The translations under genes and the position numbers were made by a program. Below, piece by piece: positions 3,946 through 19,533 of a stretch of 39,712 nucleotides of DNA (positions are counted from its first letter, which is position 1; each line of letters starts with the position of its first letter). The notes under the pieces are model-generated. The model was not told where the DNA came from. It ran no database searches and worked only from the letters and a program-made list of their open reading frames with translations. Source of the stretch: Bacteroidia bacterium (GTDB lineage: Bacteria > Bacteroidota > Bacteroidia > SpSt-205); the NCBI GenBank assembly GCA_025062295.1, contig JANXAJ010000007.1, positions 21,589-61,300 of the forward strand, written 5' to 3'.

Positions 3946-3953
3946 TAGTTTTG
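3946..3953 (+). promoter_or_regulatory. Candidate -7 box TAGTTTTG, 4 nt before ATG at 3958
   Basis: Matches Bacteroidota TAnnTTTG -7 consensus. Confidence 0.6.
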
Positions 3954-17269: not shown

Positions 17270-17341
<72 letters not shown>

Positions 17342-17344
17342 CGT

Positions 17345-17950
17345 ATGCAGAAGTGGGCGCTTGTTTTTATAGGAGCGCTTCTATGGGCTCAAGTGCGGAT
17401 AGGAGCAGTGATCGCTCCTCAGGCTACCACAGCGAAGGGCGAAATGGATAAGGATTACTTTATCACAGGTGTGGCGACAGGTCTATCAGGAGAAATTGCC
17501 TTTCCAGACTACTATGCGGCTATTGGGATGGACCTCCTGACCTCGTTTGCTGGATGGAGAGAGGAAGAGCGAGGCTATGGGGAGGTCTATAAGCGCGCAG
17601 ATCATCGCTTGACCACTCTTCAAGTTCCTCTCTATGTGCGCGCTCAATGGCTTCCCATCGGAGGAGCAGGGGCAGGTCTCACCGCTATCGTCGGCACACA
17701 ATCAGATGTACTCCTGGGAGCTCGGGTCCGTCCTGAAGGGGGTAGCTTTACAAGAAATACATCTAACTATGGGCGATTTGCAGGAGCCCTGCTGGGAGGG
17801 CTTGGCTTTTCCTACGAAGGTGAGATGGATTATGCAATGACAGTTGACCTACGCATATCCTACAGCTTTATCAACCTAAAAAAAGCGAAAGGAGGACGAA
17901 TCAATCCCGCCTGGTTCATGCTACGCGTTGCTTTCTACTTAGCCCAATAG
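17345..17950 (+). CDS. Outer-membrane beta-barrel-like protein, hypothetical
   Basis: Signal peptide MQKWALVFIGALLWAQ, glycine-rich barrel-like strands. Start revised from 17300, which lies inside the tRNA. Confidence 0.7.
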   Translation: MQKWALVFIGALLWAQVRIGAVIAPQATTAKGEMDKDYFITGVATGLSGEIAFPDYYAAIGMDLLTSFAGWREEERGYGEVYKRADHRLTTLQVPLYVRAQWLPIGGAGAGLTAIVGTQSDVLLGARVRPEGGSFTRNTSNYGRFAGALLGGLGFSYEGEMDYAMTVDLRISYSFINLKKAKGGRINPAWFMLRVAFYLAQ

Positions 17951-17977
17951 TTTCGTTACACATCTGGATTTTTTCTC

Positions 17978-17985
17978 TACCTTTG
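17978..17985 (+). promoter_or_regulatory. Candidate -7 box TACCTTTG, 11 nt before the tRNA-like element
   Basis: Matches TAnnTTTG. Confidence 0.6.
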
Positions 17986-17996
17986 CAGCGCTCATT

Positions 17997-18057
17997 GCTG
18001 TCAAGCTCGGGGGAGCCACCAGTAGGGGTGTCTCCGGTTCGACTCCGGAGGGCAGCA
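17997..18057 (+). ncRNA. tRNA-like structure in the tuf leader; degenerate tRNA or regulatory tRNA mimic
   Basis: GCTGTC (17997-18002) pairs with GGCAGC (18051-18056); D-like hairpin GCTC-GGGG-GAGC (18005-18016); short CACC-AGTAGG-GGTG hairpin (18017-18030); canonical T-arm TCCGG-TTCGACT-CCGGA (18033-18049); A at 18057. Confidence 0.55.
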
Positions 18058-18061
18058 CTAT

Positions 18062-19249
18062 ATGGCGAAGGAAGTTTTTGTCCGAGACAAAGAACATGTA
18101 AATGTCGGCACAATCGGTCATGTGGACCATGGCAAAACCACATTGACTGCTGCTATTACAAAAGTCTTAGCCAAAAAAGGGCTAGCGCAGGAGCGAACCT
18201 ACGATTCTATTGACAATGCTCCCGAAGAGCGCGAGCGAGGGATTACAATCAATACTGCCCATGTGGAGTATAATAGCGACAAGCGCCATTATGCTCATAT
18301 TGACTGCCCAGGCCATGCTGATTATGTGAAAAACATGGTAACGGGTGCCGCTCAAATGGATGCGGCGATTCTCGTAGTGGCTGCCACAGATGGTCCTAAG
18401 GCTCAGACTCGCGAACATATTCTTCTTGCTCGTCAGGTAGGGGTGCCTTACATCGTGGTCTTCTTGAATAAGGTGGACATGGTGGATGATGAAGAACTTT
18501 TAGAGCTAGCGGAGATGGAGATTCGGGATCTTCTGAACTTTTATGGGTATCCTGGGGATACTACACCGATCATCCGCGGATCTGCTCTCGGCGCACTAAA
18601 TGGGGACCCCAAATGGGAAGCCAAAGTGTTAGAACTCATAGAGACGCTGGACACTTATATTCCTACTCCCCAGCGCATCATTGACAAGCCTTTTCTAATG
18701 CCTATAGAAGACGTAGTATCTATCACTGGACGCGGCACGGTAGTTACAGGACGAATTGAGCGGGGACGCATTCGGCTCAATGAACCAGTCGACATTGTGG
18801 GGCTTCGGGAGGAGAAACTGACCTCCGTAGTAACAGGCATTGAAATGTTTCGGAAGCTCTTAGAAGAAGGGCAAGCTGGTGATAATGTGGGGCTGCTTTT
18901 GCGTGGGATTGATAAAGACCAGGTGCGGCGAGGTATGGTCGTCTGCGCACCGAATACCGTTACCCCCCACAAGCGTTTCAAGGCTGAGGCTTATATTCTC
19001 ACCAAAGAAGAAGGAGGACGCCACACCCCCTTCACTACAGGGTATCGTCCCCAGTTCTTTTTCCGAACAGCGGATGTAACAGGTGTCATTACTCTTCCGC
19101 CAGATGTACCGATGGTGATGCCTGGAGACAATGTGAGCATAGAGGCGGAGCTTATTTACCCTATTGCAATGGAGAAAAACTTGCGCTTCGCTATCCGAGA
19201 GGGAGGGCGCACCATCGGTGCTGGTCAAGTAACGGAAATTTTAGACTAA
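18062..19249 (+). CDS. tuf: Elongation factor Tu
   Basis: [33 protein letters not shown]; full-length 395 aa. Confidence 0.99.
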
Positions 19250-19254
19250 CTTTG
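19247..19254 (+). promoter_or_regulatory. Candidate -7 box TAACTTTG overlapping the tuf stop codon
   Basis: TAA of the box is the tuf stop; 9 nt before tRNA-Trp. Confidence 0.5.
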
Positions 19255-19263
19255 TCCCTTTAC

Positions 19264-19336
<73 letters not shown>

Positions 19337-19338
19337 CC

Positions 19339-19533
19339 ATGCGTGCCAAGCTCCTCAAGCTGTGGAAGGAATACTATGGAGAGTGGCGTGAAAAGGTGGA
19401 ATGGCCTTCCTTCCCTCAGCTTTTTAGTACGACAGTTACGGTGCTCGTAGGTAGCCTTCTTTTGGCTATCGTCATAGGATTGATTGATCTGGTTTTTAGC
19501 ACAGTGATGCGTGGTGTATATTCGCTCTTCTAA
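19339..19533 (+). CDS. secE: Preprotein translocase subunit SecE
   Basis: MRAKLLKLWKEYYGEWREKVEWPSFPQLFSTTVTVLVGSLLLAIVIGLIDLVFSTVMRGVYSLF; synteny tuf-trnW-secE-nusG. The ORF-track start at 19252 reads through the tRNA. Confidence 0.93.
   Translation: MRAKLLKLWKEYYGEWREKVEWPSFPQLFSTTVTVLVGSLLLAIVIGLIDLVFSTVMRGVYSLF

Follow-up and report, generated by a model that had tools for sequence, protein, structure and literature searches.

A conserved tRNA-like structure without an anticodon directly upstream of the EF-Tu gene in a genus of Bacteroidia

The tuf locus and its tRNA-like structure

In a 39,712-nucleotide stretch of a Bacteroidia genome (contig JANXAJ010000007.1, positions 21,589 to 61,300; hereafter the window), the gene of elongation factor Tu (tuf, EF-Tu) is directly preceded by a 61-nt tRNA-like structure (TLS). 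It is not a tRNA, nor is it a pseudogene in decay, and judging from its conserved parts it probably marks the cut sites of tRNA-trimming enzymes, by which the tuf message would be freed for translation. The order at the locus is TLS, 4 nt, tuf, 14 nt, tRNA-Trp and secE, and the coordinates are collected in Table 1, where G1 of the TLS is position 17997 and its discriminator-like A73 is position 18057. The minimum free energy (MFE) structure of positions 17992-18062 is a four-arm cloverleaf of -30.5 kcal/mol (z-score -2.7), which none of 200 shuffled sequences equalled; the TLS of the window is without an anticodon, and its D-arm is shortened. An earlier note on this DNA, made by reading the letters alone, had drawn the same cloverleaf 4 nt 5' of the tuf ATG with a box of its own, and both are borne out here, the cloverleaf by MFE folding and comparison across the genus, the box as TACCTTTG.

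Table 1. Coordinates of the tRNA-like structure, its parts and the surrounding features in the window
Feature	Position	Strand	Basis or remark
TLS	17997..18057	+	MFE folding and comparison of 11 species
Acceptor-like stem, 5' strand GCTGTC	17997..18002	+	partner 18051-18056 GGCAGC; optional outer pair U17996-A18057
D-like arm GCTC-GGGG-GAGC	18005..18016	+	pairs 18005-18008/18013-18016; loops of 3-4 nt in the genus, GG in all
Middle hairpin CACC-AGTAGG-GGTG, at the anticodon-arm position	18017..18030	+	stem 18017-18020/18027-18030, 6-nt loop
T-arm CTCCGG-TTCGACT-CCGGAG	18032..18050	+	18032-18037/18045-18050; core nearly invariant across the genus
Acceptor-like 3' strand GGCAGC and discriminator-like A	18051..18057	+	fold, comparison
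Spacer CTAT between TLS and ATG	18058..18061	+	predicted 5' end of processed tuf mRNA; putative cleavage
tuf, EF-Tu, 395 aa	18062..19249	+	ATG 4 nt past the TLS
Bacteroidota-type -7 promoter box TACCTTTG of tuf	17978..17985	+	sequence
Predicted short 5' leader of the tuf transcript	17990..17996	+	-7 box spacing; RNase P would remove it if cutting before G17997
tRNA-Trp(CCA)	19264..19339	+	14 nt past the tuf stop; secE ATG starts at 19339, tRNA position 76
tRNA-Thr(GGT)	17270..17342	+	precedes tuf in other Bacteroidota; ATG of next frame (17345) 3 nt after position 73
Open reading frame, outer membrane beta-barrel protein (Pfam PF13568)	17345..17950	+	between tRNA-Thr and TLS; some species only

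With reference to tRNA models, ARAGORN called no tRNA at the TLS and Rfam RF00005 gave none there at its gathering threshold, while the two together detected four ordinary tRNAs in the window, all of them away from the TLS. The sole tRNA-type alignment returned by a loose Rfam scan at the TLS was to tRNA-Sec, and it was weak (13.9 bits); the scan of positions 17900-18120 (E<=10) contained no match to mascRNA. A 5-bp anticodon stem with a 7-nt loop and an anticodon was found in the TLS of none of the 11 species of our genus sample, which includes the window's own genome (G000) and one assembly that is 83% complete (G005). A functional tRNA was rejected on these grounds, namely that no tRNA model makes a call and that there is no anticodon, and the absence of a standard call speaks for what the earlier note had found.

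Conservation and covariation across the genus

The TLS occupies the identical place, 3-4 nt 5' of tuf, in all 11 species, and in 10 of them the MFE structure of the sequence taken alone has the four arms. Since the single-sequence z-scores are by themselves modest (-0.9 to -2.7 across the species), the proof of the TLS is comparative. The acceptor stems vary among the species, with GCTGTC/GGCAGC, GCTATTG/CAATAGC, GCCACT/AGTGGC, GCCGTTG/CGATGGC and others being observed. On a tree built on tuf, whose terminal branches measure 0.2-0.4 substitutions per site, both acceptor partners changed on about 8.4 branches and pairing was kept on 7.6, compared with 1.6 for deranged partners; none of 766 deranged-partner nulls reached the observed covariation, and the observed co-occurrence was reached in 0.45% of cases when the changes were re-dealt over the branches. 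An independent count gave 97% pairing in the acceptor, against 28-50% when it was slid, and 13 double-change cells against 4.5 after shuffling, a number that none of 500 shuffles reached. The compensatory changes are visible already in a MAFFT alignment that was not fitted to the structure; RNAalifold run on this alignment placed the D-arm wrongly, owing to one-base differences between the D-loops. Chance is excluded as the source of the TLS by this comparison across the genus.

Comparatively, other parts of the TLS hardly change at all. Across the genus there is little or no variation in the T-arm CCGG-TTCGANT-CCGG or in the pairs G1-C72 and C2-G71, GG is present in the D-loop of all 11 TLS, and C stands at position 74 in all 11, as it does in 28 of the 30 real tRNA genes examined. 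A tRNA-type acceptor stem, a T-arm with a TTCRANY-type loop and the tRNA-like spacing of about 12 nt (11-12 nt) from the T-loop to position 73 are all found. The middle hairpin drifts over the 11 species, its stem ranging from 3 to 9 bp and its loop from 3 to 12 nt with no common loop sequence. The earlier note had asked whether the region would covary or drift rapidly in relatives, and the answer favours its cloverleaf: the acceptor covaries and drift is confined to the middle hairpin.

The same note had offered two origins for the structure, a decayed ancestral tRNA or a co-opted tRNA mimic. A neutral relic, that is, a tRNA pseudogene on its way to being lost, would account for the missing anticodon and the shortened D-arm, and a likely origin from tRNA-Thr would suit it; but it is contradicted by the covariation and near-invariance over 11 divergent species, the T-arm being nearly invariant despite the divergence of tuf, and by the fixed distances to the promoter and to the ATG. 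The relic is refuted for this genus by covariation, and we give it a negligible probability. Co-option is the alternative that is supported, by the covarying acceptor and the kept T-arm.

EF-Tu contacts the acceptor/T-arm helix of tRNA, which is also the conserved part of the TLS, and the structure is confined to tuf, with no second TLS detected in the genus genomes, where the other covariance-model matches examined with their loci are real tRNAs. A cis-regulatory mimic, by which EF-Tu, or some other tRNA binder, for example an aminoacyl-tRNA synthetase or the CCA-adding enzyme, would bind the TLS and repress tuf in feedback, would make use of these features. However, an uncut TLS continues into the mRNA, and tight binding by EF-Tu.GTP is limited to aminoacylated ends; there is neither an anticodon nor a conserved middle hairpin for a synthetase to recognise; and pair 49:65 of the T-stem is mismatched in most species. 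Nor is there the conserved anticodon-arm mimic of a thrS-type operator, as no part of the TLS is less conserved than the middle hairpin. We therefore hold this kind of feedback to be unlikely.

The variable middle hairpin bears on a further possibility, namely that the TLS is freed to act as a stable small RNA in its own right, in the manner of mascRNA, its position at tuf being secondary. Though its tRNA-like ends, A73 and C74, could receive CCA, as t-elements and mascRNA do (PMC11658184, PMC11693755), the hairpin is the very part able to differ from a tRNA and it is not conserved, and the position 5' of tuf is fixed. An independent small RNA is thus very improbable.

Distribution and origin

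A covariance model of the TLS (R1), the E-values of which are rough, was run over 395 genomes of the class and matched 11 of 11 in the genus and none of the 384 others. Over 395 genomes drawn across the phylum, it matched the window's own genome and one other locus, which is a true tRNA-Thr. Because the strict filters of this phylum-wide search may lose weak or distant relatives, the sequence preceding tuf was also read directly at more than 60 loci, nearly all from Bacteroidota, and no TLS was found there; at most of them tRNA-Thr(GGT) is present with an A-rich leader after it. Named tuf loci share no more than 75% identity. In a genome of the same order and another family (G012), tRNA-Thr is followed by tuf 22 nt on. 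No tuf was found in a genome of the same family (G011, 66% complete), which is hence uninformative on the TLS. As the TLS was not detected in the other class, phylum and tuf loci, it appears to have arisen in the genus or in its family, of which the only further genome is without tuf. No report of a bacterial tRNA-like tuf leader was found in the open-licence papers searched.

It is plausible that the TLS arose by (tandem) duplication of tRNA-Thr(GGT), which precedes tuf across the phylum, because among the 30 tRNAs of the genome that were examined the CCGG/CCGG T-stem is common only to this tRNA and the TLS, and this tRNA lies just upstream. The descent is not certain, since T-loop residues 59-60 disagree, being CT or GT in the TLS and TC in tRNA-Thr. 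At these residues the TLS resembles tmRNA and one tRNA-Phe; tmRNA was rejected as the source, for its T-loop agrees and its T-stem does not.

Promoter and start codons

The TTTG of the tuf box lies 11 nt from G1 of the TLS in 10 of the 11 species and 9 nt in the remaining one. In Flavobacterium johnsoniae, transcription starts 4-5 nt after the -7 box (PMC6847099), and this spacing, applied to TACCTTTG, would put the start of the tuf transcript at around 17990, with some 7 nt left before the TLS, so that the tuf leader would essentially be the TLS itself. A compact, stable fold at the expected 5' end of the transcript could also serve without any processing, as an uncut cap that guards against decay or sets the initiation rate. 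Protection alone, however, requires no invariant TTCGANT, GG D-loop, G1-C72 or 12-nt ruler, and a purely structural leader is in our judgement improbable.

Across the window, the motif TAnnTTTG was observed 3-6 nt 5' of the start codons of seven genes, as opposed to one case for eight control motifs together; these boxes are at 3946, 7387, 11552, 37832(-), 34517(-), 17240(-) and 15855(-). Because they adjoin start codons, leaderless transcripts seem to be common in this lineage, which is unusual for Bacteroidota; in F. johnsoniae, by contrast, 87% of leaders are longer than 10 nt (PMC6847099).

Start codons of the genus also fall 0-4 nt after genuine tRNAs. In each of the 11 species, the secE ATG begins 2-4 nt beyond position 73 of tRNA-Trp, a conserved case of a start codon directly at a tRNA 3' end, whereas the two are 11-136 nt apart in 54 other, mostly Bacteroidota, loci. 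In the window's own genome, frames open 0-3 nt after tRNA-Thr(GGT), tRNA-Asp, tRNA-Val(CAC), tRNA-Arg(TCG) and others. Long GTG, TTG or ATG frames were seen in the same genome 0-1 nt past position 74 of tRNA-Thr(CGT), tRNA-Asp, tRNA-Val(CAC), tRNA-Arg(TCG) and tRNA-Leu(TAG), and by eye the N-termini after tRNA-Asp and tRNA-Val resemble DNA ligase and DXP reductoisomerase. In G000, G006 and G007, the A of CCA doubles as the A of the secE ATG. Beyond C74, the CCA is mostly not encoded in the 30 tRNA genes.

Proposed function

The elbow formed by the T-loop and two guanines of the D-loop is what RNase P and RNase Z recognise, and they gauge distance along the acceptor/T helix (PMC11693755). Because the parts kept in the TLS are those which these two enzymes read, and the part used for decoding only has been given up, we propose, with a probability of about 0.6, that the TLS is a non-decoding, tRNA-derived processing module whose cleavage gives a nearly leaderless tuf mRNA. 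The hairpin at the anticodon-arm position, having no part in decoding, would be free to drift. Transcription would start about 7 nt before G1, and the intact, stable fold, 4 nt from the AUG, would hinder the ribosome. RNase P would then cut 5' of G1, and RNase Z would cut 3' of position 73 (or 74) and so release a tuf mRNA that starts 5'-(C)UAU-AUG or (C)UU-AUG with a leader of some 3-4 nt. Structured initiation regions are translated less (PMC6847099); an uncut fold near the AUG should hinder initiation, and therefore lost cutting should cost EF-Tu, which would explain the selection on the TLS. The earlier note had also suggested an RNase P/Z signal for a leaderless tuf mRNA. This suggestion gives the best fit to a genus in which tRNAs abut start codons and promoters appear leaderless; the cleavage itself we infer.

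Some observations weigh against a processing module. A plain leaderless promoter is simpler for the same job, and processing alone does not fully explain why the TLS is retained. The MFE structure of G005, the assembly that is 83% complete, differs from the cloverleaf; the junction pairs 49:65 and 7:66 are frequently mismatched (G.A and others); a C.U mismatch stands at acceptor pair 6 in G003 and G008; the D-loop is shorter than that of a tRNA; and the disagreement at T-loop residues 59-60 counts here as well. As for the enzymes, the window's own genome has an RNase P RNA; an RNase Z-like gene is present too, with a match of 273 bits, just below the NCBIfam cut-off of 293. The RNase P RNA is of class A (L186 1501-1802), and its P15/L15, by eye, is without the GGU that pairs with the CCA of tRNA, which agrees with tRNAs without an encoded CCA.

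A broader proposal, which we advance only tentatively and think more apt to fail than to hold, is that this lineage uses a mitochondrion-like, tRNA-punctuated, leaderless mode of expression, in which one of the punctuating tRNAs would have become the TLS, specialised and no longer decoding, and the TLS would couple EF-Tu synthesis to tRNA-processing capacity: pre-tRNA saturating RNase P and RNase Z would leave the tuf mRNA capped and untranslated. If this were true, EF-Tu output would track the supply of mature tRNA.

Relation to known systems

By analogy, the TLS appears to work like the t-elements of plant mitochondria and like mascRNA/menRNA, though it is by sequence a member of neither. 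The t-elements, found for example 5' of cox1 and 3' of ccmC in Arabidopsis, are homologues of tRNA genes with no encoded CCA; they are recognised by RNase P, RNase Z and the CCA enzyme, and are not aminoacylated (PMC11658184). Like them, the TLS is a non-decoding tRNA-like structure adjoining an mRNA end, in its case a predicted one. The t-elements belong to an organelle with protein-only RNase P, whereas the host of the TLS is a bacterium with an RNA-based RNase P, and the TLS is a single element fixed on tuf, with the start codon 3-4 nt off and its cleavage predicted. The mascRNA/menRNA elements have a small D stem-loop with two conserved G, a changed anticodon-equivalent stem and few linkers, and are substrates of RNase P and RNase Z (PMC11693755); set against that description, the TLS shares the reduced GG D-arm, the altered anticodon-equivalent stem and the tRNA-like acceptor and T-arm. 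These elements (human MALAT1, MEN beta) lie at the 3' side of nuclear lncRNAs, and the TLS is unrelated to them in sequence.

In the tRNA punctuation of animal mitochondria, tRNAs between reading frames are excised by RNase P and RNase Z (PMC10941002). Similarly, tuf is flanked by the TLS, 4 nt away, and by tRNA-Trp, 14 nt away; mitochondrial punctuation likewise leaves mRNAs nearly without a leader, but in the TLS genus one of the marks is no longer a tRNA and there are ordinary promoters too.

Bacterial cotranscripts of tRNA and tuf, such as thrU-tufB in E. coli and tRNA-Thr(GGT)-tuf in Bacteroidota, also have a tRNA directly upstream of tuf. Unlike the TLS, that tRNA is functional, and the leader measures tens of nt (at least 40 nt in the Bacteroidota loci read). 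The tRNA-like domain of tmRNA resembles the TLS in having an acceptor and a T-arm, with the T-loop TTCGACT, and no decoding arm; the TLS differs in that it has no tag-encoding part, and its genome holds a separate tmRNA with a different T-stem.

Known tRNA-like elements that set RNA ends come from plant mitochondria and two human lncRNAs, and none from bacteria turned up in the open-licence papers searched. The TLS would be their bacterial analogue, placed before a gene that is among the most highly expressed in the cell, within a genus whose start codons abut tRNAs. It would offer a natural system for how tRNA maturation enzymes make mRNAs and for a coupling of EF-Tu to tRNA supply, and its natural variation would set apart the features required by RNase P and RNase Z (acceptor, T-arm, GG elbow, ruler) from those required for decoding.

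Neighbouring features

The PF13568 reading frame that separates tRNA-Thr from the TLS in the window was considered to lie outside the TLS unit because it is present in some species only. The gene is missing from G007, G008 and G010, and in these genomes about 50-200 nt separate tRNA-Thr from the TLS. At the other end of tuf, the stop codon TAA also opens a TAnnTTTG box, TAACTTTG (19247-19254), which would drive tRNA-Trp and secE, and this overlap of stop codon and box recurs in nine of the 11 species.
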